This document shows positions 31,858 through 55,831 of a DNA stretch of 64,000 bases, in pieces. Position 1 is the stretch's first letter, and every line of letters starts with the position of its first letter. The stretch comes from Hyperoplus lanceolatus (Eukaryota > Chordata > Actinopteri > Uranoscopiformes > Ammodytidae). The notes under the pieces are model-generated. The model saw only the letters and a program-made list of their open reading frames with translations. It was not told where the DNA came from and searched no databases. Both the position numbers and the translations under genes were made by a program. Location of the stretch: positions 15,272,501-15,336,500 of the forward strand of contig CM049400.1 of the NCBI GenBank assembly GCA_026929865.2, in the 5' to 3' direction.

Positions 31858-32257
31858 GGGGAGAGTGGCCTAAATTGTGCCGGTGGGGAAGTTGTGCCAC
31901 CCCTTGTTTCTAGAAAAACGTGGAAGAAATTGAAAATGTGACCACAAATTTAAGAAGAGCCATCCATTTGACTCATCCTGTTCAGAAGGGAGACACAAGG
32001 AATAAGATTAAAGCACATTTAAGCTAAAAAAAAAACGTTTTTTGCCTTTCAAAGTAAAATTTCCATGATCAAGATTTTTTTGATTGTTGTGTCCGAACAA
32101 TTATAGACAAGTTTGAAAACATTTGACACATGTTTTAGTGCTTTAGTATGCTACACTTTGAGTCTATACAGTTAACACGATGTCAGCCCTAAACTGCTGC
32201 ATCATGCCTATTATCCAAAATTCTGGGGTTGGGGTGATTTGTGCCAAAGGGCCTAGG

Positions 32258-32570
32258 TGAGTTACGTAAGTAAGTAAAATGTATTTATAAAAGCACATTT
32301 ATGACAGTTTGGACTGTCAAAAGTGCTGAACATAGTGCATTCAGTAGGTAAACAATGAAGGTAAAATAACAATAACAAAAATAAAAGACATAAAGCCCAT
32401 ACATCCCCAATATAAACAAAGATAGTAGTGCAGAGGTAAGATAGTTAATGGGGAGGAAAAACCAGGGTGTACAGATGGGTTTTGAGCCTTGATTTAAAGG
32501 CAGAAATGGAGGGGGAATCACATTTGTCAGGTGGCAGCCACAAGCACGGAGCAACTAGTATATTTCTGAG
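32258..32570 (-). repeat. LINE 3'-end-like insert, copy in element 1
   Basis: On the minus strand it runs AATCAAGGCTCAAAACCCAT, then CACTTTTGACAGTCC, TAAATGTGCTTTTATAAATA and a CTTA tandem tail. The GTGCTTTATAAATA block with a short tandem tail is typical of L2/CR1-type LINE 3' ends in fish. The same insert sits at the same place in the copy at 39167, so it predates their separation. Confidence 0.45.
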
Positions 32571-32599
32571 AGTTGTGCCAGTGGCATGGCTGTTGTATA

Positions 32600-32745
32600 C
32601 GCTGGTCACCAAAAATAAAGTGATTGTCTACAGTAGCTCAGAAGAGAGTGACATCTCCATTCCACTTAACGACAGATGGCCAGAAAGATGATAATAGTAA
32701 CTTTGTCATTGTGAGCTTTGCAGGCAAAACCACCTAGATCTGCCA
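32600..32745 (+). pseudogene. Relic of transposase C-terminus (DFVIV-type)
   Basis: Frames read KVIVYSSSEESDISIPLND, then after a frameshift NFVIVSFAGKT. The matching copy at 39925-40080 reads SSSGESDISIPLNDTTDESS and DGDFVIV. An acidic serine run followed by DFVIV.FAGK resembles the C-terminus of pogo/DDE_1-type transposases in fish. Nothing of the catalytic domain remains. Confidence 0.45.
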
Positions 32746-33534
32746 GGCCTTGTTTAAGAAAATTCACCTTCAATCTTTGTAAAATATTTACTTTATTTAC
32801 TTTAAATAAACCTTAAATAAGTAATTGTCTTATGGATTTGTCTTGCATTACAGTGTATGAGATATATATCAATGGCACAATTTACCCCATGGTATTCTCT
32901 CTTGTGGCACAACTTACACCACACCGGGGGAAAGTTGTGCCACAAGACAACTTTTTTTTTCCGAAAGCTATATTTCTTAAACAGTTTATTCCAGATCCAA
33001 AGTTTTTATTGCCAGGGATGCACAACATCCTGAAATATATGTACATATTTGAGTTGGAGACATAACTGTCAAGGCCTCACTTTAAAATCACTTTGAGTAA
33101 AAAGTGGCACAACATAGGCTACTCTCCCCTATATGTCCATGGTTGATCCATACCCAAAATCTTCCTGGAAGTTAGTACACATTTGGGAATTTCTCGCATA
33201 TAAAACCATCACATACTCAAATAGAGAGGCAAAATGAGTATGAGTAGGACTTTAGTATGGCTTTCCGAACACAGCCAGTGTCATTTTCCCCAGTTACTCA
33301 GGAGAGAGATTTCTATTGTATTTTCTCAAATTAATTGTTGTGGTGCATTTTCTTCCGTAGCACCCTGGAAGAGATACAACTGTACAGTATGAGGAACAAA
33401 ACAAAAAACAATAATAAAAAATACAAGTAGCAATAATAAAACATTTTTAAAATAATTTAAAAGAAAAAGAGTGTTCTGGACAGCTTTACCTGGGAGTAAA
33501 CCCCGAGAATGAAGCAGAACACTCTGTAGAGATA

Positions 33535-33665
33535 ACATATTCTATCTGGCTATCTTGGGAACTCCCAGAGAGCACTATACAAGGTGTCTGGGGGAGAATC
33601 AAATATGGGATAGATTGCTTAGCCTCTGACCTGGACCCAGATACGAGGCAACAATTTATTTTATA
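33535..33665 (+). pseudogene. Short LINE-related relic
   Basis: CTTGGGAACTCCCAGAGAGC, GGGAGAATC, TTGCTTAGCCTCTGACCTGG and ACCCAGATACGAGGCAAC resemble, in order, a widespread fish repeat that encodes the end of a LINE polyprotein (LGxPxxE...DLLxLLPPRDPDxxRG). The open frame is lost. Confidence 0.4.
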
Positions 33666-33669
33666 TGTT

Positions 33670-35838
33670 TAAACACCTTTGAAATGAAACTACTTTAGTT
33701 AAAGGTTGAGATTATTTTGAACTATGTTATGGATGGATTCATCTACAGTATTACATCATTTACGTTATCACGTTTAAATTCAAGGGTTTTAAGATAGTTT
33801 AAGTTTTAAGTTCACAAAGTCTGAGATGTTTTTCAAAAAATAAACCATCAATCAGTTCATCAGTCTATCAGAACAATAAATAAATCCCATTTAATATCAC
33901 CAAATTTAGGACTACATGCATGTTTTCATAATTTGTTTTTACCACATTGATTTGTGGCACAATACTACAAATCTGTTTTTTTATTGCTATAAAAGTTAAC
34001 TGGATTTTTGATTAAATATTGTGAATGCAACACATGGAGTCTGATGGCTTTTGAAGTGTCACCTTTCATTGTGATGGCAAGGCAACGTACAGTGAAGCAG
34101 AAAACAAAGACTAACTAAATAAATACATTTAAAGGTGCTGTGAAACAAGTCGACACAGGCCGATTGAAGACAATGTGTAGATAATGAATAATGTATAAGT
34201 TGGTTGATGCATAATTGATCAGTTATAATATAATTTCACATAGGCTGTGTTTTGATTTAAGGCAGTGCAGTCTGCAAAATGATAAAACTTGAGCTTAATT
34301 TCACATGATGATCTATAGCGTAACTTGGAGATCTTACTCCTCAAATAAACTTGGCACACTGTATGAATCTCTGTCTTTCATTTAAGCGCTAATGGAAGGA
34401 ATGAGTAAATCAATAATGCAACTAAGTATTTAAAATAATCCAATTCTAGGCACTACTTTGAGCCAGCATCTTCTTTGAGAGGCAGCAAAGCTGGCAACAA
34501 AAGCAGAGGAATATTTTCATTTTATATCAGTGCTTGGCAGAGTCTTACTGAATGTAAAACAAAGAAGCTATGCCTCCTTAAAGTGACTACATAGCAGGGA
34601 CTTTAAACCTTTATAAAATCTACTTCCCATACAAATAGGGAGCAATTAGTTTATAGAGAATGGTGACTGCCATGTCGGCCGGAATTACACAAGAAGCTGA
34701 TTTCACTGTTAATTCAGCGTTATTGATGTCCCAGTAAGTGTGGTCATAACATATGGTAGAATCTCATTTAATTAGAAATAATTCAAATTAGTAAAATTAT
34801 GTTGATGTTGAAAGGCAACATACATGAGTCACATGACTTAATTCCCTCAGATAATCCTGTTTAATTCTTCTTTTTTTAAATACTTTTCTACATTGTTTTT
34901 AAATATTTACCCCTCTTGACGCGAACAAGGCTTAAACACTTTGTTGTTTTAACAGAGATCCTTACTTCATTATCATAATGCATTTATAATTCAAGTAAGT
35001 GTTTTATTAATGCACATATTTGTTTCCGAGGGAGAAAATAGCTCTTGCATTATAATTGTCCTTCTCTGCATGGATGAATAACAAGGCCTTGAGGCCAATG
35101 TCTGGTACCATAAGTAGTTTTTTAGGGGTTGGGGCATGCAAAAAAATTTAAAATTAAAAATAAATAGAGAAAGGTCATGGTTGCCTTGTGTGGCTGTTTA
35201 CACGACACCGCACCCTGTGGCAAGTGGTCAGATCTGAAACTCCCAGGCCAACGCATTATAGATCCCCCCATATTCCCCCCTCCCAAAGATGAATGCACCA
35301 GTGAGTGCTCAACTGATTTCTCCTTTACAACTGTAATCATCACATGCAAAACTGCCCCTCGTGAACAGCTGAGCTTTTTAATGTATATTGCAAGAGGGAT
35401 ATATTATGTGCTAGGAAATTGGGTTTAACAGTGTTCAGGGAACGGCTCACTGCTGTCACACTCTGTCTCCCAAGTATATAAAAGTACAAAATGAGTTAAA
35501 GGCTTTTCATTGAAAGGCTGGTCATGAACAGCATTAAAGAATCAGTAGAATCCATTAAAATAAAGAGCACTACTTAAGACTAAATTAAACTTTCAGCAGA
35601 TCCATGGCTCTTTAAACCACTGTGTGGTTAAGATAACTTTAAAACCTAACCCAAATGGGTACCTTCATCAATACTCCCCTGCAGCACTCTCTTTCACTGT
35701 TGCCCAAACATGCGTGTGTTGACACACACTCTTTAACATATAAACTGACAGATTGTGTTTGCTTAACACATTGTCATTGATGAACACAACAATATTTCAC
35801 ATCAAGATTGTCTAATAAAAATGATCGGTGCTGTGATT
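33670..35838. other. No gene seen
   Basis: AT-rich, low-repeat sequence. The stretch 34450-34760 is moderately complex and non-repetitive, but nothing identifies it. Confidence 0.45.
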
Positions 35839-35846
35839 ATGGGGTC

Positions 35847-36736
35847 CAGAGCCGGCCCAAGCCTTCAGGGGGCCCTAAGCGAAATATGATTAGGGGGCCC
35901 CTCTCCAATGTTAGCGCTGCTGAAACTATAGATCTTTGTAAAATCTCATTCACACACCCAGTGTTTTCCGCTAGTGCCTCCACTGTGCAGCTGTGTGAAA
36001 ATATTAGACAGCCTCGATTCAGACCCTTCTAGGGTGTCCGGGGGTATGCCCCCCAGGAGATTTTTTAAACTTTTTTAAAGTGAAATGCATGAATCTAGTG
36101 CACTTTGAAAGGAAGATTAAGAGGCTAAATCTGAGAAATGTTGTGTGAACAAATAATTTGGAGACTGCACTGGGACAGATGAATTAGAAGCTATTGAAGA
36201 AGGACACATGGATTTTCCATAAAAATATTAATATAAAATAAAATATTATGGAGGGTCTTCTGGGTTGGGCTTGGAGCTCTTGTTCTTTTACGGGACATAT
36301 TTCTCTGTAATATAATGAATGCATTTAAATGCAGTGAGAGGAACGAAGCAGAAGAACTCTGTTGTCCAGCTACTGTATCTTTTTTTCCACAGACGAGGCT
36401 GAAATTGGCTAAACACAGTGCATGGGCAACTGAGGGCAGCCCCATTTCCAATTGTTTTTAAATAAACTATGCTGTGCATAGATGTGAACGTGACATGATC
36501 AGATAATATCGGATTACCTCCCAGATGAACTGATTACATTTTTAGGCTAATAATTATCTAGACCAAACCATTTTATTCCTTTTTTTATGATAACTTACAT
36601 TTGCATAATATGGTGTTAATATCAAACACACACAAAAAAAAAATATCTTTATTTTTACATTTTTTTGAGGGGCCACCCCTGGCGGTCGGGGGCCCTAAGC
36701 GACCACTTAGTTTGCTTATGCCTCGGGCCGGCTCTG
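35847..36736. mobile_element. Non-autonomous hAT element (CAGAGCCGGCCC ends)
   Basis: CAGAGCCGGCCCAAGCC and CCTCGGGCCGGCTCTG form the inverted ends. The exact 8-bp duplication ATGGGGTC flanks them (35839-35846, 36737-36744). Subterminal GGGGGCCCTAAGCGA occurs on both sides in direct orientation. It is non-coding, 890 bp. Confidence 0.92.
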
Positions 36737-36820
36737 ATGGGGTCCACTATGGAATGTATAAGCTGAAACCTTAATGGTGTTCTGCCTGCCAATATTGTTT
36801 AAACCTTTTATTTTATACAT

Positions 36821-36821
<1 letters not shown>

Positions 36822-36884
<63 letters not shown>
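36822..36884. repeat. (ATT)n microsatellite
   Basis: About 20 perfect ATT units. Confidence 0.97.
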
Positions 36885-36886
<2 letters not shown>

Positions 36887-37624
36887 TTTTCTTTTATAAA
36901 TGTGAGCTCCTCAGAGATACAAAGCATTATTGATACATGTCTGATTTCCATGCTTGCAGCATGTCACTATAACACTTCATATCTCCCTGATGATAGATAA
37001 TAACACTTAGCAGGTGAACAGGTTTTATGACAGAAAATGCCCAATAATGCTCTGACAAAAAGAAATATAACAAATTCCACACCACAATAGTAAGACCTGC
37101 TAATTATACTAGATTAACGGTTGACTGTCATAAAACAAATGAAAGAGGTTCAGCAGTGAAGTGGCTGGGCATTAGGTATTAGGAGTGTGACTGTGTTTTG
37201 ACTGAACTGATACAGAGCTAATTATTTAACAGCTCTCCTTTGCCTCCTTCACCTTTAGTCAAGAGTTAAGATAATGGATTTATTGACTGTGTATCAATAA
37301 AAAATGTTATCAAAGAATAAAGATTTGGGCAATGAAAATTGTAATTTGGTTGTTAAGTTTGTGCTTCGGAAAAAAAGTGTTGTAGGCTACTTCACAGGAT
37401 TTAAATGGATCCCACTTTATCTTTGATATCAAACAGAAAGAGTTGAGGCTCTCTTACTTTAGAAACAAATAAGTGGTCCTGTCAACATTCAGAACGTTTA
37501 AACAATTGCTGAGACTCACAGCCAAGCAAATAAACCAGCCATGCAGATATATTTTTTATGTGTGTCTGTGGTGTTTTAGGTGGGTATTTGCCTAACTTTG
37601 TTTGATAACTCTGTGTAAATGTAG
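36885..37624. other. No gene seen
   Basis: AT-rich spacer; nothing recognised. Confidence 0.45.
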
Positions 37625-38746
37625 TATATGGTCCATATACGTATTGATCGTTTGTTTTTAGGATTGAATCCAAAGTGACAGAAAGGAGATTACCACTCGT
37701 ACTTTCGTTTTACCGTTTTCCTGTTGGAATGCAGAAACAAAAATACGAGCCAGATTATCTTTTTTCGCTTATTGCTACAAAACCAAAAAAGAATGACAGA
37801 AACAAGGAAACGGAAGAACGGAGATTTTTGTATCCAATGTGTGTGTGAGATCTTTGATTTTGCTCCTTTGCTCAACACGTTAACTTGGCACATATTTGTG
37901 AACCGAAATCTTTGTGAGAACTATCAGACTGCAGACAGAAGTAAAGAAAATCAAGTACATAGTTCTCGCTAGAAATCTTATAAAAACATCATTACAATGA
38001 TCTATGCTCTTTTTAATTCCCACTGAAAAGGGCATCCATCGCAGCGTTTAAAAGCTCAGAAGGGCTGCTGTTATAGGCTCGTTTTGTGTAACGTGATACG
38101 GGCTGGATGTCCACTAGTTCATTAAGCACGTTCAAATGTTAAGTTTTTCGGCCCATAAATGTTACATTGCCTACGCATCCCCCGCTTGCAGTAGAGTTCA
38201 CTGACAAGGTTTTTCTCTGGTGACTGTGTTGGGTGCCAAGTGTGCCACCGCACAGGGCCTCGCGCCTGGTTTCAATAATATTTTCTTTATTTTAATATAG
38301 GCAACAGAAAAAAATCACACTAGGTAGAGTGTGGCTCCTTTACCAAAAAAGAATAGGCTATGGCAACAGCTCACTGGATAGAGCCATAACACGGGACTGA
38401 GACCCGTCACATACAGCTAGTCAGAACGGCGTAGTGCCCTCTTCCTCTCCAAATATGCCAAGAGCGCACAGATTGGACACTGTTTTGGCTGATAAGCGGG
38501 TAAGAACAACGTGCGTTGCAACGGCGTCAAAAAAGTCACAGGATCATTGCACCGACAAATCGATCAAACCATCACCATCTCTCTTTGCTGAGGCAGGGCT
38601 CATAACAATGCCATTTTCAGGGATAGATATTTCAATTTAAACAGCCCCAGAAAACGGTGAAACGAAAATATGAGTGGTATTCCCCTTTCTGTCACTTTGG
38701 ATTCAATCCGAAAAACAAACGATCAAAACTTACACGGACCATATAT
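37625..38746. mobile_element. Element with ~100-bp inverted repeats
   Basis: 37625-37722 and 38650-38746 are inverted copies at roughly 80-85% by eye; the shared core includes GATCGTTTGTTTTT, GGATTGAATCCAAAGTGACA and GAAAGG. The interior has no recognisable protein. Outside, TGTAAATGTAG (37614-37624) and TGTATGTGTAC (38747-38757) are similar and could be a decayed 9-11 bp target duplication. Superfamily unknown; long inverted repeats are common in Mutator-type elements. Confidence 0.65.
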
Positions 38747-38798
38747 GTATGTGTACACACATTGAGTTGCCTGAATGTATGACTACATGTGTGTGTGC

Positions 38799-38833
38799 AA
38801 CCTGGTCTCACGGCATTTCCGTGAGACCAGGTT
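38799..38833. repeat. Perfect 15-bp stem hairpin
   Basis: AACCTGGTCTCACGG, a 5-nt spacer CATTT, then CCGTGAGACCAGGTT. The arm sequence looks like a transposon end; the whole may be a miniature element collapsed to its two termini. Confidence 0.85.
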
Positions 38834-39166
38834 CGTGTGTGTTTATGAAATTACTAAGGATCTCAGACCAAGAGTCCAGTCAGGCATGATTAGATGATGT
38901 GAAGCTTAGGTCAAGGTTACATTTTTCTAACAGCTGTGGCTGAAATTGCAGTGAAACCCTCCACCAGTCTCTGGCAATATGGACTAGACCGTGAGCTTCC
39001 CCCCTGACATGACCTTGGATTCATGCATTTTTCATGAGGCAGAATGGCAGAGGGAGGCCTCCCCATTCCTGCAATAATTAGTATTGAGCTTAGTAAGGTG
39101 GTATGTTCATTATATCAAAGAAAGGTCTATGTTGAAAACAAAAAAAAAATATATAAAATTTGCATA

Positions 39167-40230
39167 GGGGAAGGTGGGGTGATTTGTGCATTTTGGAAGT
39201 TGCAAAACCCCTTGTTTCTAGAAAACCGTGGAAGAAATTGGAAATGTGACCACATATTTAAGAAGAGCCATCCATTTGACTCATCCTGTAAAGAAGGGAG
39301 ACACAAGGAATAAGATATAAGCACATTTAAGCTCAAAAAACTGTGTTTTGCCTTTCAAAGTAAAATTTCCATGATCAAGGTTTTTTGATTATTGTGTCTG
39401 AACAATTATAGACACGTTTGAAAACATTTGACACATGTTTTAGTGCTTTGGTATGCTACACTTTGAGTCTATATAGTTAGCACAATGTCAACCCTAAATT
39501 GCTGCATCATGCCTATTATCCAAAATTCTGGGGATGGGGTGATTTGTGCGCAAGGGCCTGGGTGAGTTATAAGTAAGTAAGTAAGTAAAATGTATTTATA
39601 AAAGCACATTTATGACAGTTTGCACTGTCCAAAGTGCTGTACATAGTGCATTCAGTAGGTAAACAATGAAGGTAAAATAACAATAACCAAAATAAAAGAC
39701 GTAAAGCCCATATATCCACATAAACACAGATAGTAGTGCAGAGGTAAGTAAGTAGTGCAGAGGTTAATGGGGAGGAAACACCAGGGTGTACATATGGGTT
39801 TTGAGCCTTGATTTAAAGGCAGAAATGTAGGGGGAATCACATTTGTCAGGTGGCAGTTGGTTCCACAAGCACGGAGCAACTAGTGCAAAGTACATTTCTG
39901 AGAGTTGTGCCAGTGGCATGGCTGTATACGCTGGTCACCAAAAGAAAGTGATAGTCTACAGTAGCTCAGGAGAGAGTGACATCTCAATTCCACTTAACGA
40001 CACCACTGATGAGAGTTCAGATGGCCAGAAAGATGATGATGGTGACTTTGTCATTGTGACACAAGACAACTTTTTTTCCGAAAGCTATATTTCTTAAACA
40101 GTTTATTCCAGATCCAAAGTTTTTATTGCCAGGGATGCACAATATCCTGAAATATATGTACATATTTGAGTTGGAGACATAACTGTCATCACTTTGAGTA
40201 AAAAGTTGCACAAATCACCCCACCTTCCCC
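39167..40230 (+). mobile_element. TA-flanked G-rich-ended element (pogo-like?), copy 2
   Basis: GGGGAAGGTGGGGTGATTTG and CAAATCACCCCACCTTCCCC are perfect 20-bp inverted ends with TA on each side (39165-39166, 40231-40232). The interior parallels 31858-33129 for most of its length, including the LINE-tail insert (about 39566-39890), but the repeated phrase is now GATTTGTGC/GTTGCA instead of GTTGTGCC. Confidence 0.78.
39910..40097 (+). pseudogene. Relic of transposase C-terminus, copy 2
   Basis: The frame MAVYAGHQKKVIVYSSSGE continues through SDISIPLNDTTDESSDGQKD to DDDGDFVIV, then runs into terminal sequence. The acidic tail followed by DFVIV matches the relic at 32600 and fits the end of a pogo-like transposase. 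The element body has lost everything else. Confidence 0.45.
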
Positions 40231-42730
40231 TACTTGAATTTCAATATACGGACAATGAACTCAAATCCTTTTATACTTATTTTTAATATTACATATTTTT
40301 ACTTGGTGCTCTGTATGAAAATTAGCAACAATGTATAAGAAAAAGATATGGAGTGGGATGCTGTGGTATGAACAAGACCCTCACACAAGGTCTTTGCAAA
40401 GCAGAAGCTGTCATACAGGGATTAGGGGGATGAGCAGAAAACCGACAATAGGCACCAGCTTATATTCTTTAGAAGACAAGATTTAAATTTTAATCCACTA
40501 TAAATGAAGGTGACAAAACAAAATGCAATCACCACTAGTAGGCCTAAATATCCACACTCTGAAAGCTTATAATAAACATGAAAAAAGACGTACTGAACAA
40601 TTGAGAGGAACTCAAAAACTGGAGACTGAAGAGAGCGGAAGTGAACAACTGGTATACATGCGATTAAACTAGAGGAGAGGGACATAACATGTTTATAAAG
40701 CAAGCACACTTGTTGCTTTGTTTTGCTACAATGGACATTTGCAATGTTTTCAACTCAGACAGGTGTGATAGGCAAATGCAAACATGTTGCCGGAGAACAC
40801 TCGTTACCTGAAAAGAGTGATTATAATGTCCATGATGCCTTTTCATAAAGCATGTCTAGCAAACCTAATAGCCCACACTAGTGCTGTGGGAATCAACATT
40901 CACGTCATGCAAAGCATTGACTCTTCCAGTTATTGGCAAAATAAAATCACGGGAGGACGATAATAAACTAAGCTAAAAACAATTTAATTTTCCACATGGA
41001 AAACATCCCGACACAATCCCCTTTTGATTTTCCTTTTATCCTGCATCTTGTTTTCCTCATCAGCCATAAGCTCAATTGGCATTTTGTTCTGATATGATAA
41101 CCTCATACCACTGCCATCTGCTCACTGGTCTATTAATTTACAGGGAACTGCAACACAACAAATAACCTTTGAATAAGAAAAAGACAAACAAAAAGGAAGG
41201 GGAAAGTCATGGAAGACTCGACATAATTTGAACAAACACAGCAGCAATTCTAGATAATAAAACAAAACTGCATAACAGTGATTTTCCTGACTATTTATTG
41301 TGCTACTTTCAATCTACAGCAGGTTAAATTAGCTTGATATAGATGTACTGTACATATGTATTGCATTTACTCTTTCTTATTGCTTTTATTCTAATCACCA
41401 AAGTAAGGACTTGTTCTCCTGACAAAGTACCTAACTAGAAACAAGCAGTCTGGTGGATTAGAGTAGGCAAGAGACTGTAGGGTCTGTATTGACCTCACAG
41501 GAGGGGGCAGGTGTGACTCATTACTAGTTGAGGCAAAAATGCTCTGGTAGAGCAACGTGGTTGAGCTTTACATTGCAGAGGTTATACTGGAAGGGCTAAT
41601 GGTTTGATTAGTTATTTTGTACCTAAACACTATACCATTCACCTTTTTACCTATACAATGAAACCAGAACTCACTACATCTAGAGAGGAACAGGTTGTCA
41701 AAAGACAAGCAAATAAATAAAAATACAGCCAGAATAGCTGCTTACAAATACAGCATATAGAGTTCATTTCATCAGCATCAGGTGAGTGGCCCCTTTTCAT
41801 CTTTAGACCAGGATCAAAGCAAGCCCATACCATTCTCATTTTACCACGTAACATTATCTGTGTTAACATTAATGAAAAGTGGCTTGTGTGTGGCCCACAA
41901 TGTAAATACAAACCATAGTTTAAAATATAACCCAAAATGTAACAACTGGTCGTAAATCTGTCAAAATACAGACTCCATAATGTGATGACTATTTTCCCAT
42001 AATGTTTCAACTTTTTACATGTTGGTTCACATTATGATGCGAGCAAAATATTTTGGTCTTAATAGTGTAATAATTGTACTACATGATTAGTGAATAAATC
42101 ATTCATGTAATAAAGGGGTAATTGCTTCAATGTAGAGAGTACTATGTAATGCAAGCAATATTCAAATAGCATTTACTGTAATTCAAGGCTCAGGGAGTTC
42201 ATACACAAATGTCTGTGTGCACACGTCTGTGTAGACTGAAACAACACAACATTTTGTGAAATACTACAAACAAAAGGTCACACACAGTCACAGTCACACA
42301 TCAATATCACACAGAAGTTTTAATGAAAACTATTCATAAAGGAATAGTTAAATATTTTAAAGTGTTATCTTGTTGCCTTTATTTAGTTCTTAAATTACAT
42401 AACGTGTAAAAGTATAGAGCGCAACAACTTGGTTAATAAATAAAGTCCCAATAAGCATACGTGAGCGTTTCGTGATGTTGTAAAGTTTATCGTTTGACCT
42501 GCTCCCAGTGTTTGAGCTAAACTAACCTGGATTAGCGATATATGTCTTTTTCTGAATCAAAAATGCACACACAGGTAGGTACAAGAAGGGTTTCTGTTGC
42601 CTTTTCTTGAGCAAGAGAGTGAATCAAAAAGCGAAAATCTTAAAATGTTGAACTATTCGTTTAACAAATATATAGCTTAAATTCATGATTAAAAGAAAAT
42701 ACCTATATTTTCTTAACATTTAACGTTACA
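40231..42730. other. No gene seen
   Basis: 2.5 kb without recognised repeats or domains. The 119-codon minus-strand frame at 41651-42010 has no family features. The stretch 40950-41150 is non-repetitive and of moderate complexity. Confidence 0.45.
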
Positions 42731-43022: not shown

Positions 43023-43189
43023 GCAATGGGCAAATGTCTCATCGTATTTAGTCCAATTTAGAATTAAGTATTCAGTCTATTTGGTCTATATATTTGTATT
43101 TCAACTTAGGGTTAAACCAAGTGAAGTGGGCCTGAACATCTCAGGGATATGCATGACTCAAACATCAAAACATACAGTATACAGCGTGT

Positions 43190-43193
<4 letters not shown>

Positions 43194-43250: not shown

Positions 43251-43256
<6 letters not shown>

Positions 43257-44681
43257 CAAATAGCTTCTGTTATGACAGCATGACATCAAGACTTTAGAGT
43301 TGACGTGGAAAATACCCCCACTTTCAACTAAAATTTGTTTTCTGACATAAATCAGCTTTAGAGCAAGGACGGGATGGTTTTCTCTATATAGCTGGGCTTA
43401 TCAGGTTCCATTAATGTCACTGTGATTGCTAAAGCACTTACTCATTCCTTGCCTATTTGCTTTGAAATTGTGTACAATTGCTCCAGCCTTGCTTTTGAGA
43501 GTCTCTGTGTGCGAGCATCTGTTTTCAGAAAGATCAGTTGACAAATCAAGTGTGATAGTCACTTTGAATTTTGTCCTGAAATAAAAGGGTACATAGTCTT
43601 TTATAATCTTTTTTCATTTTGAGCGTTCCTATCTTTAATAACTACCACTACCATCAGGGCCGACGGACTGGGGGGGGGGGGGGGGTACATAAGACAGGCT
43701 TGGGGGTCCTAAGGCAGAGGGGGGCCCATAAAAAAATATATATTTGCATTTAACTAGCTCAATATAGGACCTTGGAAGCCCCCCAAACAATGTTATTCAA
43801 AAAAATTAATAATTGACTGGCTCATGATCGGCTCCTGATCTCCATGGTTGGGGGGGGGTATGGAGATCAGGGGCCTATCATTTGCCAGTACATTATTTGT
43901 TATATTTTAGATAAAATTGTTCGGGGCTACGAATATCAGGGGCCTATATTGAGCCATTAAAACAAATAAACAAAGACTTCAAAGAGAGAATGAGCTTTGG
44001 CATAAGGGATTATTAAAAAAAATCCCAAAGCTGACTTGATTTTTTAAACATGTACATTATTTGTTTCTGCTTTTTGGTTATTCTGTGTATCCAAATTACA
44101 AACACTGTTTGTGTGTATGGTTATTAAAAGTCATTAGACCAGGGGTCGGGTTGGTGTAAAAATAACCTGAAAATGATTTGGTCATTCATCAATAGAAATA
44201 TTTTGGTGTTATCTGGCTCAGAGATAGCCTGGCTTCGCCTGCCTACCTACTTCCGCCCAAATTTAATTTTCCCTTCAGTAGTCAGTCTGGGGCTACGGTG
44301 AATTCACGTGTTTGAGCTCAGGAACATTTCCGGCCGTCCAATCAGGGAACAGAGCGAGTGGCTGAGAACGATGACGTTGAAGTCGCGCTCCATTTTCAGT
44401 TGAATGCTGCGACCAAACGTTATGCGATTGATTGGCTGATCCAGAGTGGCACTGGGCAGATCCAATAGTTTTAAAGCTCCCATATTATACACTTTTCGGT
44501 ACTATTATACACCATATTATATGTCTTAGTGGTCCCTAATACGTTTTTCTTTAATTGTTTGCTGAAAAAAACTTTCAGATAATTTATTGTACTGTGCTGA
44601 TGTTCAGCTAATCTCACAATGGCCTATTTTTTAAAAAGAGCTGCAGCTCCCCTCGTAAATATACAATCTTTGAGCTGCCCC

Positions 44682-45849: not shown

Positions 45850-46592
45850 ACTACTATAGTGTCAACAGTTCCACCTGGGTGCTGCTTACATTTTAAGTTC
45901 CTCTCACATTGAATGTGGCGAATAAATTAATGTACTGGTCTCATAAATGTATAACAATATCCTGAAGCCCTTAAAATTCAAGAAAATTACCTTGGGCTAA
46001 TTTAAATAAAATTAACAGTTTTGAGAGTACCACACCCCCTGTCCGGAAGTGAAGCCAGATACGCCTCGCCCTCTGTCTGTCAGGGCCGTGGACCAATAAG
46101 AAATAGGGGTGTGGGCTGCACAGTGGAAGCTTCTGGCTTTCCAGTTTGTGAGGTCAGAAAAGGGGAAAATTCTGACTGGAGTATATTCTGACTGGGGGGG
46201 AGGGGTGGGGGTTTCAGAAAGGGGGAGAGTGAGAACAGGAGAGATTGTTATTTTTTTTATATTTTGGCAGTCTCTAGGCACACTGTGGACCCATGGATAT
46301 GTTAGAACACATTTAAAAAGTGCATTTAGCATAATATGTGACCTTTAAACTTCAACAGATACCCGCCTCCAAGTGAGAGAACGTTTGCCAAATAGAGCAG
46401 TTCCAGACATTCTGTACAAATGAAATGAAGTACGATGGTCTGGTAGCACCAGGCTAGCTCAGAGAGGGACCAGTCACTAATATGTTTTTGACTCTAGACA
46501 AGCATGGCTCTTACACATTTGTTTTGTAATACCACCTCTCAGAGGGCCCATCAGTACTTATTGTACAGCGGCCCAAAATGTGGTGCTACGCC

Positions 46593-48516
46593 CAGGCCCG
46601 GATTAACCCCTTAGGGTGCCCCAGGGTGACTTCACATGAAATGCCCCTGTCCTTGAACTTTACACAAAAATGTTAAAATTTACTATGGCATTAAGGCCAC
46701 AGATTTACAAGAGCGTGTAGCTAAAGACAAGCACAGACTCACCACACATAGACTACTACAGAAACATTTAGATCCAACCAAAAATCTTGACACTGACAGG
46801 AGTCTCATACTAGCCTTGCACTGACGCTCAAATCAGAATGCAACACCCATCACCATGCAACACGTCATGATGAATATAAATATTTCCATAATAAATGAGG
46901 CATACAAAAACAATAATTAGCATGCAGGTTTAACTCTCCTGTATAGATTTATTTAAAAGTGAAGACAACCTAGAGTCACATTACTTTGTAGTGAAGTGAT
47001 ATCTTTATACCATTAAGATTAAATCATAGCCTAATTGGCATTGATCTAAATGGTCTCTGGGAATTGTAGGCTTTGTTAAACGTTAGGCATCAGTATAATA
47101 AAGTTCATCATGTTCATCTCTAAAAAAAGGGATCTTTTATTAGGCCTACATACATTTCATCAACGTTACATTCTTATTACTGAAATTACTGTTTTGAAAT
47201 GTAACCTACTTTAACTTTCTTTAGGCCTATCATATTTGTTATGCAAATGGAGAAATACTAAACCTCCTTTATTTGGATTGAAAAGTATTGTTTTATCACT
47301 TAAAAGTAGACTTATCTCGTAAAATAACAAGAAAGATAAAGATGTGTGGGGAATGGGGATATATCTCGTTTCTTGTTTTGAAAATGTCCCTCGCTTTTGA
47401 AATGTTTACTCCAATTGGTTTCATATTCTGCTTCTAATCGGTTGTAGTATGTGTAGCTCTTCTACGAATATGTTTTCTAATAGGCCTTCAAAATCAAACT
47501 ACAAAACTAACTGCATCCGCAATAAAGACGCTACTTCCGACGGCACATTCAAGTCGAGCCAACTCGGAGCTGTCGGGTTACAGTCAGGCTTTTTTCTCAC
47601 TCCCCCGTCTGCATTTGGCTACTCTCGAGCCACAACTGGGCTCTAAGGAGCCTAGTGTCTCTCTCTTTGCACCTCTCCACACCTTTGTGGCGTCACAACG
47701 GCTTATAAAATCACCACAGCTACATATTAGCAGATAGAAATAATGGACGATACGCCTTACCTTTTATAACTTATTCCTCCATTTCTTGCTGGCAAAAAAA
47801 AACTTCTGACTGAAGGAACAATTTGAATCGCGGCTTTTGTTTACATAAATTTGGCGCCGCTGCCGCCGTGTCATTGTGGACTGGTCCATGATGGGGGAGC
47901 GGGGCACTTTGCTTACACCCAAGTCAAAATAATCATATTTTTTTTCATTAATAATCTTAACAATGGTTCATTTTTTCTCACTCCCCCGTCTGCATTTGGC
48001 TACTCTCGAGCCACAACTGGGCTCTAAGGAGCCTAGTGTCTCTCTCTTTGCACCTCTCCACACCTTTGTGGCGTCACAACGGCTTATAAAATCACCACAG
48101 CTACATATTAGCAGATAGAAATAATGGACGATACGCCTTACCTTTTATAACTTATTCCTCCATTTCTTGCTGGCAAAAAAAAACTTCTGACTGAAGGAAC
48201 AATTTGAATCGCGGCTTTTGTTTACATAAATTTGGCGCCGCTGCCGCCGTGTCATTGTGGACTGGTCCATGATGGGGGAGCGGGGCACTTTGCTTACACC
48301 CAAGTCAAAATAATCATATTTTTTTTTCATTAATAATCTTAACAATGGTTCATTTTGTACATGGTTGTGTCTCTTCCAGTATATGGCCGATTAAAATATG
48401 AAAAAGAAATTTAGGGTTTAATCATTGTCCTGATCATTTGGTGCCCCCCTAATGGCTATATATGGCTGGTGCCCCAGGGCACTCGCCGGATCCTTTATAT
48501 GGATAATCCGGCCTTG
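46593..48516. mobile_element. hAT element (CAGGCCCGGATTA ends)
   Basis: CAGGCCCGGATTAA and GATAATCCGGCCTTG are imperfect inverted ends. The exact 8-bp duplication GCTACGCC flanks them (46585-46592, 48517-48524). Conserved subterminal text GGTGCCCCAGGG occurs near both ends in inverse. No transposase frame is seen. Its 3' half contains a 381-bp near-perfect tandem duplication. Confidence 0.88.
47591..48353. repeat. 381-bp tandem duplication, almost identical units
   Basis: Units 47591-47971 and 47972-48353 each run from TTTTTCTCACTCCCCCGTC to AACAATGGTTCATTTT. I found only a one-base length difference in a T run. Each unit carries GGCGCCGCTGCCGCCG and CCACACCTTTGTGGCGTC. Its freshness implies a recent event or an assembly artefact. 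Confidence 0.95.
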
Positions 48517-48536
48517 GCTACGCCCCTGACTATCAT

Positions 48537-49884
48537 ACAGTATTTTCCACCTTGCTTAATTATGGTTAAATACAAAACCATTGACCTATCTGAAAGAATT
48601 TCCACATTTCAGTATTTCAGTATAAATCACCTATATTTAATGTTTGCAATAATTTGTTTAAGTGTGTCATTGTAGATGTGTTAAGTCACCGAAAAGGCTA
48701 ATATTCAAGATGTTTAGGCATTCCACAATTTCTTCTCACAGAACACATGAAGTGATTGAAGTGCATTCATTTTTATCATGACACTTGAAAGGCATTGATC
48801 TGACAATGGGGGTGACCAACAAATGGAGGGGAGCTGTGATGAATGGTACATCACACCTTGGCTAGTAAAGTAAAGCAAACTAAATGACATCCAACCCTTT
48901 CACAGTATGGCGTATAGTCCTGGATACCACAGAGGGAAAAGACGATGAGAAAGAGTACACCATTATTAGTAAGTACTGAGACAGAAGTAGGAGAGGGAAG
49001 GTTAATTCCTGTTCAACCCAGCCTGAAGACAGCACACATTACACGGGTGCTCTCTGCGCACATGGGAGACAAATTGGATTCAATGTCCCATATTTCAACA
49101 GGTCACTTGACTTGGCTTTTCACTTGCTATATAAATCACCTGCGGCCACTGGGAGAGAAAGGGAGGGCTGAACAGTCACTTATTCTGGTACGAGCGATTG
49201 TAGTATACAACACAAGTATGCCTAAACCTGTTTTCTGTATCTCTGAGATTAGGTTTTCAGCGCAAAGAATCTGGCCTTTGACTCACTCATTTACTAGAAA
49301 ACTCTTATTCATTGGGTCCATGTGAGTAGTCCTGTCTGCCCTTTAACAATCTATTTTATTTTTTTCTTTATTTTCTGCAACTCAGTATCACTCATGGAGT
49401 TTTTGTTTTCATAATTTTGTATTTGGTGACATGACAAGATAAGAAAATAAATAAATAAAGGTTAGAATTGTGCATTTGGAAAGGGGGGGTAGATTGTTGT
49501 GTATGACTCCTGTGTGTGTAAAGGTGTGTGTAGATTTGAGCGCAAACCTCTGCAGATATATTATATAATTTACTTATAATGCTTTCATTACAATCACTAT
49601 GTTGCAACCTTTATAGCACGTCACACATAACTCTATAACCAAGACTTGAACTTATCATACAGTTTTAGTGTAGAGTTGCTTTCTCAACAGCAGATAATAT
49701 GTCGATATGTCCAATTTTCTCTAGCGAAGATGTGATTCAGCAGGGTTGATGCTGATACCTTGGCCCTAAAGCTGTGGCTGATGGTCCATTATAAAAAGAC
49801 GGGCTCCCTGAGGAATCTCCATAACATAACCAAGCAACTTCACCACATGCCTGGGGGTCTATTCTTCTTCTTCTGAGAGAGAGA
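48537..49884. other. No supported gene
   Basis: A 126-codon + frame (48945-49325) contains no recognised domain or start context. The rest is AT-rich. Confidence 0.45.
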
Positions 49885-50348
49885 GAAACAAACAGGATTC
49901 TTCCCCCAGAGAAGAGGCGTTCGGCAGGGTTGCAATCTAAGTCCGACTTTATTTAATATATATATATTAATGAACTGGCTGTTGAGTTCGATCAATGTGC
50001 TGCTCCTGGCCTCTCCCTCCTAGATAGAGAGGTGAAGTCCTTGTTTTACGCTGATGACCTTGTTCTACTGTCTCCTACTGAACAAGGACTACAGCAACAG
50101 TTAGACGTAGTAGAACAGTACTGTCAGAACTGGGCCCTGGCAGTAAACATGAAGAAAACCAACATCATGATCTTTCAAAAACGCCCCAAGTGTCATGAGA
50201 ACAAACATCAATTTACCATTAATAATCATGTAATTGAACACAGTATGAGTTATACCTACCTTGGTATAACCATAACAGCATCAGGGAGTTTCAACATGGC
50301 AGTGAATGCACTAAAAGAAAAAGTTCGAAGAGCTCTATTTGCAATTAA

Positions 50349-51734
50349 GGCGAGACACCCCAGGTGAATAGGGATTTTTTTTAACTTATAGATATCATCA
50401 TGAAACTTTGCCAGTTGATTACTGACACTAACACAATTAGTTTTTGTATTACATGTTTTTCTTTAATATTTTATTAAATATGCAAATATGGCAATACTTA
50501 GCCAATTATGCGTAAATTTGTGTCATTTTTTGAGAAAACAATCGATGATGATGAGATGTTGGATAAAGCCAGAGTTAAAATCTCTATTTTATTTTAAGCA
50601 CATATTAGTTTCTAAAGTTTTTACACAACAGATTTTGTTCATTTAATAAATCAAAAAATACTATGTACATGTCTTATAAATGCATTTTAGGCATGTTTTT
50701 AGGAGGAAAATGTATCATAAATCAGACAATTAACAATATATTAACAAATCCTTGTGTAAAAACCTTTAAAATAGTGCTATGAATGATTATAGAAAGTTTG
50801 GTTGATGTCAGTGGTCTAGAAGTTGAGATATCTTTCTCAGAGTATTGGAAAAAGCTCATTTTGAGAAAACGGCCGTTAAAGATAAAAACGTGAATTCTGC
50901 TGATGATCACTGATTATAGCTAGAGTAATTTATTGAATTAGGCCCTACACCCCTCAATGCCATATAGGCCTACCACTGCTTAACATATATAAACCATAGC
51001 ATAGTAACATTTACATCCACTTGCTAATTTAAACGTGATTAATTCATTATTAGCCACTGTCTGTCAACCTGCTCCGGAGTCGGCACAGACGCTCTCTCTC
51101 CCCACCATCTCCCCTCTGATCCTCTGACAGTCTGTGTCTCTCTGACGTGATCGGCGTGATTTACATGTCTTTAACACTTCTCCCCTTCAAATGGCGATCA
51201 TGTACTATCCGTAGCCAATTGATTAAGTATTTGTTTTGTGTTGGTTTGGCATATTTTCGACGTTTTTCCTATTTTATTTTGTGATTTTCGAGCTACCCGC
51301 GGCTAGCATCACGTGATGCCTTTTAGCGAATCACATCGTCAGAAATGTGCATTAGCCAATGAGGTCGCGTTCCTAGCATTGAATCCCTCCTCACACTTTC
51401 ACGATTGGTTACTGATACAAAGGAAATGACCATATTTGGATCCGATAACGTTGCACTTGAGATTCAGAGCGTTCCAACAGTACCATGGTTATTATGATTC
51501 ATACAGCGGTCGCGGTGCTGTATGTTACGTTAGAATGCTCACTTTTGACAAATTTAGGAGCAAAATACAGACGCAAGCAGTCAAAGTTTAGTAAAATAAA
51601 CATCTAAAACGTATATTTTGGACCTTTTATCCATACTAGTATGAAAGAAGACATGTTATGGAAGCTAAATAGACACAAATCTCAAAATTGACCAGTGCTT
51701 CAAAAAACTATGTTTTTGCCTGCCGTGTCTCGCC
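50349..51734. mobile_element. TTAA-flanked element (Kolobok-like), non-autonomous
   Basis: GGCGAGACACCCCAGG and CCTGCCGTGTCTCGCC are inverted ends with two mismatches. TTAA flanks both sides (50345-50348, 51735-51738). Removing it and one TTAA rejoins the LINE codons Ala-Ile-Lys-Arg. It has no recognisable transposase. The TTAA target and GGCGAGACAC ends fit Kolobok-type repeats I associate with fish genomes. Confidence 0.85.
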
Positions 51735-52010
51735 TTAAGAGAAAAATTTATAATTTCCAAATTCCAATAAAAATCTGGCTTAAAATATTTGATAGTGTCA
51801 TCCAGCCCATTGTGCTGTACGGTAGTGAAGAATGGGGTCCACTCAGTCATCAGAGCTGTACCTGTTGGGACAAACATCCAACAGAATCTCTACTTGCAGA
51901 ATTCTGCAGATACATTTTACATGTACACGGAAACACACCAACAAATGCATGTAGAGCAGAATTAGGCGGATTCCCACTTATAATTAACATTCAAAAAATT
52001 TAATTTAAAA

Positions 52011-52457
52011 ATGCATAAAATCTCAAATGATAATTCATCAAAATGTCCTAGATGTAAAAAGGAAGAGGGAACTTTTTTGCACCTGTTTTGGGAATGTCAT
52101 TTTTTGAATGACTTTTGGAATTGTATTCATAATTTTACGAAATCTGTTTTGAAATTGGAATTTAATTTAAACCCCTGTTTTTATTTATTAAATGAGTCCC
52201 TAGACTTTCACTTAGATAGAAAAAAATCCAGAATACTGATACTTATAACATATTGTGCAAAGAAATGTATTCTATTTTTTTGGAAAAATGAGTCTCCGCC
52301 AACCTTTAAGTTGTTTTTGGAACAAATGTCCACTTTTTTACCATTAGAGAAATTAACCCTGGAAAAATGCGATCGCAGCCATATCTTTCACGAATTTTGG
52401 ATTCCATTAATCAGTGGCTTAGAGGAATTTTCTATAGTAGGTTGTCAACAACGATAA
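52011..52457 (+). pseudogene. L1-like ORF2 C-terminal domain
   Basis: 148 open codons with KCPRCKKEEGTFLHLFWECH, the Cys/His knuckle near the C-terminus of vertebrate L1 ORF2 proteins (CxxC...HxFWxC), followed by a hydrophobic tail (FHEFWIPLISGLEE). The frame is open to its natural stop, so this piece is young, but endonuclease and polymerase are missing. Confidence 0.75.
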
Positions 52458-52489
52458 GAAAATGATGTTGTAATTTCTAAAGATTTTTT

Positions 52490-52492
<3 letters not shown>

Positions 52493-52552
<60 letters not shown>
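52493..52552. repeat. (ATT)n microsatellite
   Basis: About 20 units within the L1 3' region. The poly-leucine frame across it is an artefact. Confidence 0.95.
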
Positions 52553-53421
52553 TTCCTTTATTATTAGTATAGGAGTGTTTTTCTTGCTTTTGTTGTTTTT
52601 TGATTGTGTGTTGTATATGTGCCTGCATGGCCTATGTAATGTTGATGCAAGGAAGGGTTACATGAACATTATGTGATAAGTGTATTCATCAATGTATACC
52701 CATCCCAAATAAAAAGATGTTAGAAAAAAAAAATTAACATTCAAAAGAGAAAGCTCAACTTTTTTAACCACCTGAAATCCAGCCCTAGAGACACCCTCCA
52801 CTCCAAAGCCCTCCAAACCCAAGAGCTGAGCCCAGAAAAGAGTCCCCTATGTCAGTTAGTACTGAGGCTAACTGCCCCCTCTCAGACACACTCTGACCAG
52901 CCTCACAACAACACTGCTCTCCAAACAGTAATCAGAGTAAAGCAAATTATAGCACAATGTAAAGAAACCTATATCTGGAGTGCGGACCATGGGGAAGAAA
53001 CAACTAAAAGCCAAAGTAGATTGGAATGTTATCACGCCCTTAAAATAAATTATGAATTAGCAGAATATCTCTCTACTGTCAGAGATAGAAAGCAGAGACA
53101 GATCCTAACCAAGTACAGGCTCAGTGACCACAAACTGGCAATTGAAACAGGAAGACACAAAAAATCTTGGCAACCAAAAGAAAACAGAAAATGTGGTCAC
53201 TGTTCGACAGGTGAGATTGAGACAGAGATGCACTTTCTCCTACAATGTACATTAAATGACATAAGACAATTGTATTTGAACAAGTTCAGCTCTTTAGTAC
53301 CAGATTTCAAAGAGCTTTCAAAGAGATTTTAAAAATACTCCTCGGAGAAGGAGACCGGGCACATGTTGCTGCCCAGTATATATTAACATGCCACAACCTG
53401 AGGGACAGTGAATTATTGAGG

Positions 53422-53422
<1 letters not shown>

Positions 53423-53474
<52 letters not shown>
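53423..53474. repeat. (CA)n microsatellite
   Basis: About 26 CA units at the end of the LINE coding region, just after RDSELLRN. Confidence 0.96.
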
Positions 53475-53476
<2 letters not shown>

Positions 53477-53630
53477 ACTCAAGTAATATAATGTTCATAA
53501 TGTATATACTTTTCATAATGTATATAATTGTCATATGTGTTTTGTCTGATTTATTGGACTTATTGTATCTTACTGATACTTTGCAACATTGTTTTTCTAT
53601 TTTAAACTTTCATGCCAATAAAGCCAATTT

Positions 53631-53679
53631 GAATTGAATTGAATTGCATTGAATTGAATTGAATTGAATTGAAATGAAT

Positions 53680-53710
<31 letters not shown>
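53631..53710. repeat. (GAATT)n LINE tail and (GA)n run
   Basis: GCCAATAAAGCCAATTTGAA leads into about 11 GAATT units (53631-53686) and then (GA)n to 53710. The pentamer array follows an AATAAA signal and is best read as the 3' tail of the LINE. Confidence 0.85.
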
Positions 53711-53949
53711 CAATTCTGAGCCGATGCAATGATGTCAGCTTATTTCTTTGCCTTCCTATTATATGTGGTATCTGCTTCACCTTTGTGTAAAACATGAAAA
53801 AAGTGGCTCCGCTGGAGGAGTCTTCCTTTAATTTTCAATATTGATTTTTTTTAAACATGAAGCTCTTACTGGTGATACCAGAAGTAAGGACAAATGGCCA
53901 ATGGCAGATTAATAAAGCATAAGACCTTTAAATGCTCCTTACATACATA

Positions 53950-55831
53950 GGGGAGAACGGGGGAATCTGAGGTATCGGGTAATGTGAGCCACCCCCTGTA
54001 TCTAGGCAACGGAAAACATTTGTGGTCATGTGAGATATATGTTTTCAAGCCCCTCTAATTTCCCCATGGCCCTGAAAGAGAGGACCTCATGGTGCTGTGG
54101 TAAGCATGTTTTTTTCACCAAAATAGGTATTTTGTATGTAAAAGTAAATTTTCTTGCTGTCAACTTAATCAACTGTTGTGCCAAAGCAAATGTATTCACG
54201 TAGAAACACTTATATCATACATGTTGATGAACTACCAACATGTAAAAACCATGTGATGATATTAGCTAAAGATTAGCCTGAAATGCTAAGAGAGGTAGTT
54301 TTTTCTCAAATTGTGGTGGTGGGGGAAAGTGAGCCAAATGCTGTGGGGGAAAGTGAGGCACTGTCTCACTTTCCCCCACCATGAGGTACAAGTTAAGTTT
54401 AGTCTTAAACATATTTTAAAGAGGACCTATTATGCTACTTTTCTGGTCTTAATTTCTTGTTTTACACTGCTATAGAGCAACCTGACACTAATCACATCAC
54501 AAAAAACTATGTAGATTTTCGGGAAGCTCTTTCTCTTATTTTGGCGATCCAGCACATCCTGTCAACACTTGAGTGTGTGTGCTTCGGCTCCCTCCGCCTG
54601 TGCTTCGGCCATCTCCGCTCCCCCCCCCCCTCCCTGCAAACCCCACTCCGTTGTGATTGGTTACCTTCCTTCCGGAACACTTTCAGTGGCGGGAAGCGCG
54701 AGCATGGACCTATAAGGGCGCGAGGCAGACGCGAACAGGGAAGTGACAGCATTACCATACATGGAAACATCGCGTGGAGACGTCACAAAGTTTTATGGAT
54801 AAAATTATGAAAGGGTAGACCGCTTTGAAGACGTGACTTTGACTGGCTAGAATAGTGTTTAGTGCTCTGCACAGACACCCCAGAGGTAGAGGGAATATGT
54901 GAAATGATTAAGTCATTATTTGATAATTTAGTATGGTTAAGCATGACTATGAATCATCATAACAACGTTTATAGGTCATAAAAGTCAAAAAGCATCATAG
55001 GTCCTCTTTAATGTAATATTACATAAAATATGTTTTATTTTAATGTCATACACATTGTAAAAAAGCCATCATGCCAAGGAAACCTTGGGGTAACGACCTG
55101 GGGCAACCACACAGCACCTTCTCATCTTTCCCTGTAACCTTCAGGGCTGGAATGTAGAGTAGGCCTAGTTGTAGAGTATGACAGGCTGATGTTATAATCC
55201 AGTTGGGATTCTTCTCCTGTGTTCTGAGTCCCACTCTGTTCTCGCTGGTTCTGATTTTCCTATGCTTTGACCCCCAGACACAAGCTGGCTCTAAGGGTCC
55301 TGTGCTCTGACCCCCAGACTGTGTTCTAATCTAAATGGTTCTATCTTTCATTTGAATCTTATTAAAACCTTTGAATTATACTATGTTGTATTTGATTTTG
55401 TTCAGAGTTACTTTTAAGTGTTTAGAAAATTTGCTTTGCTTAATTGACCAAACCCCATCATTCTTTTACTAGTCCGACATTAGTTCTGGAATGTGTGGCT
55501 AGCTTTCAGGATTCTAACATTCTATGTTATGGTAGATTCAGAGTGGAAAAAGTAAGTGGATCAGTTTACCCCTAGCTGGTTCACTTTACCCCCTTGATTT
55601 TTCTGGTCTGTCTCAGTTCACCCCACAGCTGGGGTAAAGTGAGCCACATGACACCTTTTTTTAAAACAATCATATTTTCACTGCCCTTTGTCTTGAAAAA
55701 ATTCTGCTAATGCCCATTTCTAGGAAACATCCTGAATTAATGGGAAATGTGTACATTTGAGTGATAAATCATTTTAGCTCGCTTAGAGGGGAGCAAATGT
55801 AAAAAGTGGCTCCGATTACCCCGTTCTCCCC
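53950..55831. mobile_element. TA-flanked G-rich-ended element, AGTGAGCC type
   Basis: GGGGAGAACGGGGG and CCCCGTTCTCCCC are inverted ends; the left is preceded by TA and the right followed by CA (a mutated TA). Inside, GTGAGCC or its complement recurs with adjacent G runs at about 53986, 54329, 54350, 54365, 55583, 55636 and 55805. No coding relic is recognised. A TTAA element sits inside. Confidence 0.7.
54420..55007. mobile_element. TTAA-flanked miniature element
   Basis: AGAGGACCTATTATGCTAC and GCATCATAGGTCCTCT are inverted ends, with TTAA at 54416-54419 and 55008-55011. Non-coding, 588 bp. Its ends resemble those of 44475-46344, so they are probably the same family. Confidence 0.88.

Follow-up and report, generated by a model that had tools for sequence, protein, structure and literature searches.

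Family-specific arrays of short words in TA-flanked elements of Hyperoplus lanceolatus

Four elements and their repeated words

The stretch of DNA analysed here – the window, 64,000 nucleotides of contig CM049400.1 in the Hyperoplus lanceolatus assembly GCA_026929865.2 (forward-strand positions 15,272,501 to 15,336,500) – holds four elements (Table 1) whose target site is TA and which carry, at their tips and well inside, arrays of short words that differ between families. They form part of one large group of non-autonomous, TA-target and presumably cut-and-paste DNA transposons in this genome. Elements 1, 2 and 4 represent families 1, 2 and 4. A first-pass annotation of the window had described all four, and they are present, although the overall range it gave (31858..55831) leaves out element 1; it had also noted that elements 2 and 3 are near-homologous yet have different end words, and their interior blocks are indeed 90-99% alike.

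The TA flanks that had been assigned throughout occur on either side of elements 2 and 3, to the left of element 4 and to the right of element 1, but element 4 extends to 55832 and has CA after it. In element 1 the left end has decayed and this copy lacks the tip GGGGAR, which was found, with up to two mismatches allowed, in 17 of 20 other family-1 copies. The tips of element 2, described earlier as having a second GGGG, read GGGGAGAGTGGCC, with GGCC in that place, and a tip of this type is the usual form in family 2. Nor does the exact phrase stand at every end: the right tip of element 1 has TAGGCAC and that of element 4 GGAGCC, where five of five fetched family-4 copies have TGAGCC.

Counted on both strands and set against 300 dinucleotide-preserving shuffles of each element, the main phrases lie far above expectation in all four; one of the two refuting outcomes named beforehand, phrases no commoner than in shuffles, thus did not occur for them. 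Element 1 has GGTTGTCAC four times (shuffle mean 0.02, maximum 2); element 2 has GTTGTGCC five times (mean 0.04, maximum 2) and TTGTGCC eight times (mean 0.27, maximum 3); GATTTGTGC occurs three times in element 3 (mean 0.03, maximum 1), and GTGAGCC three times in element 4 (mean 0.21, maximum 2). GTTGCA, put forward as a further phrase of element 3, is not enriched (two occurrences; mean 1.07, maximum 5). Each element's phrase occurs at most once in any other element.

Further copies were taken from the 806.7 Mb assembly: 40 of 2,604 candidates were scored for family 1 (24 fetched, 18 with both ends), 40 of 3,013 for family 2 (33 fetched, 28 with both ends) and 40 of 1,571 for family 4 (five fetched). 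Being drawn from the best-scoring, they are biased to recent copies. Among copies with both ends, TA flanks each side of all 18 in family 1 and of 26 of the 28 in family 2, counts that lean towards TA because the end-finding pattern contained it (with mismatches allowed), and in five of five family-4 copies. Within the 18 family-1 copies TTGTCAC has a density of 3.98 per kb, against 0.13 in the flanks, and TTGTGCC is absent; within the 28 family-2 copies TTGTGCC reaches 4.82 per kb, against 0.17 in the flanks, with TTGTCAC at 0.06. At one locus, L041, a family-1 copy with both tips and a TA on each side lies inside a relative of element 4 (the L041 relative). Read without that copy and one TA, the locus gives GAGAATTATG, compared with GAGATATATG in element 4, a paralogous empty site. 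Element 4 thus shows the L041 site unfilled, and family 1 therefore moved after that relative's copy was in place.

Array geometry and coordinated changes of the words

The arrays were searched with words chosen by eye in consensus ends of elements 1 (19 left and 23 right ends) and 2 (32 left and 29 right), in the window copies of elements 3 and 4, and in the L041 relative, and positions are those of the first word base counted from the first G of the end. Most sites consist of a G run, about four bases and then the word. In element 1 the words lie at 18, 34, 376 and 400 from the left and at 18, 194 (inverted), 216 and 238 from the right; in element 2 at 18, 35 and 379, and at 18, 193 (inverted), 216 and 248; in element 4 at 18, 34, 379, 403 and 421 (inverted), and at 19, 195 (inverted), 217, 248 and 269. 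Three families with the words TTGTCAC, TTGTGCC and xTGAGCC therefore have sites at near-equal positions and in the same orientations, on a common plan: the left tip has two sites in tandem and the right tip a single one, an inner left site falls at about 376-379, followed in two families by a second at 400 or 403, and the inner right cluster, which starts at about 193, includes a head-to-head pair. Element 3 has left sites at 17, 33 (GTTGCA) and 377, and on the right a site at 17 only, plus an inverted GTTGCA. The L041 relative has 18, 34, 512 and 536 on the left and 17, 201 (inverted), 223 and 255 on the right; its listed match at 151 is due to chance.

The inner sites of elements 1, 2 and 4 give 11 cross-family matches (within 3 bp, same strand) against a maximum of 7 in 200,000 random placements, in a test that ignores common descent, used sites picked by eye and left out the L041 relative. 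The spacers between the sites were aligned as well. Those of elements 2 and 4 score 5.5 on the left and 5.5 on the right, above 100 of 100 shuffles (maxima -13.5 and -2.0). Elements 1 and 2 score -16.0 on the left, at the edge of the shuffles (maximum -15.5), and -13.5 on the right, within them (maximum -2.0); elements 1 and 4 stay within the shuffles on both sides (-27.0 left, maximum -16.5; -6.5 right, maximum -5.0). By these scores elements 2 and 4 are recognisable relatives; element 1 has the same geometry, with little spacer that can be aligned. In all three families the right arm runs 175-176 bp from first to inner word and the left arm 342-345 bp from second to inner word, a ratio of about one to two, for which looping or nucleosome wrapping would be a guess.

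Related elements differ by coordinated changes of the word. Between element 4 and the L041 relative, GTGAGCC is matched by GTGAGAC at the second left site and at the inverted inner right site, and by GTGAGAG at the first inner left site; the second inner left site has GTGAGGC (family form GTGAGCC) against GTGAGAC, the right tip GGAGCC (family form TGAGCC) against GTGAGAC, and the first left site CTGAGG against GTGAAA. Among copies of the element 2 type the last base of the word goes together at the two ends: a left C or T accompanies a right C in 19 of 20, and a left G or A accompanies a right A in nine of nine. These 29 copies, left from 35 rows after removal of five without an anchor and one of the other 30 without a readable left word, are not independent and stand for a few lineages, not 29 events.

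A right-end pattern with eight free bases matches 5,361 places in the genome (control 0), and the words were tallied for the first 59 of these, on C1. The element 1 type accounts for 21 (GTAGGCAC 17, GTTGGCAC 2, GTCGGCAC 1, GTAAGCAC 1), TTTGTGCA for 12, the element 2 type for four (GTTGTGCC 2, ATTGTGCC 1, GTTGTGCA 1), the element 4 type for 13 (TCTGAGCC 12, TTTGAGCC 1) and a GAGAC type for seven (TGTGAGAC 5, AGTGAGAC 1, TCTGAGAC 1), with GATGTGCC and GTTGAGCC found once each. Within this sample the GGCC block occurs only with the element 2 type, and GGGGAAGGT only with TTTGTGCA. Several words stand one base from a neighbour (TTGTGCC, TTGAGCC, CTGAGCC, CTGAGAC, GTGAGAC), in keeping with stepwise drift, the element 1 words standing further off; this graded series supports the earlier proposal of a terminal specificity that shifts from family to family.

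The 43-base left end of element 3 has 1,454 exact copies in the genome (control 0), and a sister form with the element 2 tip and the same spacer has 654. The element 3 tip joined to the element 2 second site gave no genome match to the exact pattern, the only one used. The tip word of element 3, GGGGTGATTTGTGC, is carried by both its tips and is also the inner left site of elements 2 and 3 themselves and of 19 of the 25 fetched family-2 copies with a readable site. Of 11 exact left ends listed for the first 4.5 Mb of C1, ten pair with an element 3-type right end, at lengths of 1,084 to 1,138 bp, and the remaining one has no matching right end. Seven of the ten are 1,128 bp long with TA, 60 bp more than the window copy (1,068 with TA); in the one copy compared by coordinates (C1:299462-300589) the additional 60 bp fall on the right of the tail, close to where a head-to-head pair would be expected. 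This common length undoes the idea that missing inner right sites mark the successful form of element 3.

Table 1. Elements, word sites and coding remnants in the window
Feature	Position	Strand	Remark
Element 1 (family 1)	10153..11758	+	start approximate; left end decayed; right end TA-flanked
Second left-tip site TTGTCAC	10173..10179	+	
Inner left site TCGTCAC	10483..10489	+	preceded by GGGGTTGG
Inner left site TTGTCAC	10507..10513	+	
Coding-tail remnant (basic stretch)	10984..11139	+	then stop in this copy
Inner right site TTGTCAC	11515..11521	-	
Inner right site TTGTCAC	11537..11543	-	head to head with 11565 site
Inner right site TTGTCAC	11565..11571	+	
Right-tip word TAGGCAC	11735..11741	-	
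Element 2 (family 2)	31858..33129	+	TA-flanked
Left-tip word TTGTGCC, site 1	31875..31881	+	
Left-tip word TTGTGCC, site 2	31892..31898	+	
Inner left site TTGTGCC	32239..32245	+	GGGGTGATTTGTGCC
Inner right site TTGTGCC	32874..32880	-	
Inner right site TTGTGCC	32906..32912	-	
Inner right site TTGTGCC	32935..32941	+	head to head with 32906 site
Right-tip word TTGTGCC	33106..33112	-	
Element 3	39167..40230	+	TA-flanked; this copy without inner right sites
Left-tip word TTTGTGC	39183..39189	+	
Inner left site TTTGTGC	39543..39549	+	
Acidic possible coding-tail remnant	39945..40058	+	identical 38-residue copies at at least 150 places
Right-tip word TTTGTGC	40208..40214	-	
Element 4 (family 4)	53950..55832	+	left TA, right CA
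Second left-tip site GTGAGCC	53984..53990	+	
Inner left site GTGAGCC	54329..54335	+	
Inner left site GTGAGGC	54353..54359	+	GTGAGCC in 4/5 fetched copies
Inner left inverted site GTGAGAC	54363..54369	-	
Inner right site CTGATCC	55558..55564	-	
Inner right site GTGAACC	55578..55584	-	
Inner right site CTGAGAC	55610..55616	-	
Inner right site GTGAGCC	55639..55645	+	head to head with 55610 site
Right-tip word CGGAGCC	55808..55814	-	

The TTGTGCC at 32573 in element 2 was rejected as an array site; no G run precedes it, and it recurs in element 3 at 39905.

A putative binding array and its rivals

That the phrases are binding sites had been proposed at the outset. Their place beside a G run, at near-fixed positions and orientations in three families, and the recurrence of variants within an element speak indirectly for this, and binding itself we infer. 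From these sequence patterns we think it probable that each element carries a putative array for a transposase or a partner protein, the word of which has been rewritten largely together, family by family. Each end would consist of a short cleavage tip, TA-GGGGAR, and a share in an array of two-part sites, in which a G run common to the families is followed, after about four bases, by a family-specific word of about seven. The transposase, or a DNA-binding partner protein of the autonomous element, would bind these sites and bring the ends together (synapsis), with the G run read by a conserved part of the protein and the word by a changing part. On a change of specificity, which the earlier proposal linked to the transposase, the word would be rewritten at most sites of those copies that still move, and a rewritten master copy could multiply into a family with its own word; gene conversion among the sites could supply the coordinated change.

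Besides the scope of the position test and the non-independence of family copies, several observations weigh against this reading. Pfam analysis of the frames and a genome search for DDE_1 tied no full-length transposase to the element ends. An inverted GTGAGAC is kept inside element 4 and the five fetched family-4 copies, element 4 and the L041 relative both have CTGAGAC and CTGATCC in the inner right cluster, the family-1 right tip is TAGGCAC where the other family-1 words are TTGTCAC, and the family-2 inner left site is TTTGTGCC. The window copy of element 3 is without inner right sites. In the L041 relative the inner right sites are displaced by six bases and the inner left sites are at 512 and 536, the latter probably shifted by a further insertion.

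Words could also change together by gene conversion or template switching within an element, for example in gap repair after excision, and such homogenisation can either supply the change in the binding-array account or act with no change of protein. As a rival account it seems to us rather unlikely. The identity of the element 3 tip word with the inner left site of most family-2 copies, its presence at both element 3 tips and the lack of any copy joining that tip to the family-2 second site (exact pattern) speak for it, but sites within one element are incompletely homogenised, and the shared stretches are about 14 bases, at which length convergence under selection is indistinguishable from conversion. 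Descent without function, in which an array from one ancestor survived with few insertions or deletions, each family took its master's chance word and the inner sites are unread, is unlikely. It has in its favour the alignable spacers of elements 2 and 4 and the evident amplification from a master, since 1,454 exact left ends of element 3 show how one chance variant can fill a family; yet within ends that are otherwise conserved it is the words that vary most, while remaining alike at several sites of one element, and family 1 keeps the geometry though its spacers align no better than shuffles.

Two further accounts have less to commend them. G-run motifs are common host factor sites and the inner sites lie hundreds of bases inside the elements, so the repeats might be regulatory, serving a host factor or an element promoter and not a transposase; but a host factor would hardly need a different word for each family in one genome, and in most families the word of the array also stands at the cleavage tips, which makes this very unlikely. 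Hardly credible is an origin of the inner clusters as scars of nested insertions by related elements. Nesting does occur, as at L041, but the copy nested there has both tips and a TA on each side, while the inner clusters are without tips and lie at the same places in three families, and the idea was rejected on these grounds.

The binding-array account may be carried a step further, to a rewritable address code in which the G-run half of each site stays fixed and the word half is rewritten across the array, letting a new family escape the old enzyme. Because both element 3 tips carry the family-2 inner site, inner sites may in addition be templates for overwriting the tips. We offer this version tentatively and rate it as improbable.

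The group bears on how a transposase and its scattered sites may switch specificity and still work at every stage. With thousands of copies, words one or two bases apart and near-constant geometry, switching could be traced stepwise here and tested by binding and mobility assays, and the group would show how non-autonomous families stay tied to one partner or leave it. Plant CACTA elements already provide a close precedent for the general idea, so that it is less of a surprise.

Known systems, coding remnants and other repeats

In plant CACTA (En/Spm) elements a short motif is repeated near the ends, direct and inverted, and in En/Spm it is needed in cis and bound by an element protein; the motifs differ between families within a species while sharing a portion, and a parallel change of the binding protein has been proposed (PMC2613891, in excerpt). 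Repeated subterminal motifs in both orientations, bound in plants by TNPA-like proteins, are thus a common feature, but the many clustered repeats of CACTA contrast with the few sites at near-fixed positions common to families found here (same excerpt). Membership in CACTA was rejected on the tips (TA-GGGGAR here, CACTA there) and the target (TA here, a 3-bp duplication there); the host here is an animal. Sleeping Beauty (Tc1/mariner) shares the TA target and has outer and inner sites at each end bound by one transposase, which orders synapsis; its sites lie within inverted repeats of about 220 bp (PMC7827188, in excerpt), unlike the arms here, which differ beyond the tips. With inner sites at about 376 on the left and about 194 on the right, some of them inverted, the elements do not fit the inverted-repeat/direct-repeat arrangement of the Tc1/mariner kind.

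Hermes and piggyBat, with target sites of 8 bp and TTAA, belong to other superfamilies, and their tips and targets are unlike those of the elements here. The BED domains of the Hermes (hAT) transposase bind its subterminal repeats, in one way at the left end and in another at the right (PMC10368747, in excerpt), and piggyBat has subterminal sequences that inhibit activity (PMC11707139, in excerpt). ISL2EU, which features a YqaJ exonuclease gene, has the target duplication AT (PMC4482050) and was set aside for the TA target here. Pogo elements such as Passer of fish share the TA duplication, the short terminal repeats and an abundance in fish, and their two-motif DNA-binding domains would suit two-part sites, while no inner array of sites appears in the available excerpts of PMC9976928 and PMC7386202, unlike in our elements. 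Terminal inverted repeats in the superfamily are short, mostly up to 40 bp, and about 13-26 bp are alike between left and right consensus ends here; the TA duplication is not unique to pogo, which is otherwise recognised by the DDE_1 transposase of the autonomous element and by the motifs CENP-B_N, HTH_Tnp_Tc5, HTH_psq and BrkDBD. Literature searches, some with phrase-like strings, found no recognised description of these elements within a coverage that excluded Repbase and most subscription papers, where the families may therefore be catalogued; the listed matches to such strings look like chance.

The coding tail of element 1 continues in other family-1 copies into a cysteine-rich finger, in the order basic, acidic, cysteine-histidine finger, with a C4HC3 pattern by eye at L094. 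We take it to be like the tails of fish pogo-type transposases, a likeness that no tool confirmed: Pfam gave no match above its curated cut-off for element frames and tail fragments, and the PDB hits of the tail, to RING and PHD proteins, were weak (best E 0.1). No tail relative was confirmed in viral_contigs or genome_contigs, and the end pattern had 0 matches in viral_contigs. The genome has 23 DDE_1 matches, none within 10 kb of a family copy when partial lists were compared by eye; a weak match at C1:1429561 is 4 kb from a right end, on its outer side. A DDE_1 copy on C10 belongs to another family, with none of these ends in the 1.6 kb that were read, and an open frame of 1,851 residues turned out to be a stretch of N. 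Three family-1 copies that lack a left end have no transposase frame of their own upstream; at L050 a left end stands 10 kb away, amid other elements. The genome searches made here found no autonomous copy with these ends.

Elements 1 and 4 each seem to hold a nested smaller element, at about 10589-10962 and 54416-55011; the former starts with TAGCCTGGCT and ends with CCAGGCTA, and related blocks lie at 44225-44475 and 46374-46456. At 47590-48270 an exact 300-bp block is repeated 381 bp apart, each copy followed by GGGGGAGCGGGGCACTTTGC, which is G-rich like the element tips but without TA or word. A 311-residue open frame matching HTH_Tnp_Tc3_2 and DDE_3 (16288-17223, minus strand) sits between inverted repeats (16176-16254 and 17506-17584), forming a Tc1-like element whose transposase frame is unbroken. 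A second Tc1-like arrangement, with 496-nucleotide inverted arms 92% complementary and pieces of a Tc1-like frame recognised by eye, occupies 18131-19770. About 1 kb occurs twice in opposite orientation, at 5955-6980 and 22641-23666, in blocks 86-93% alike.

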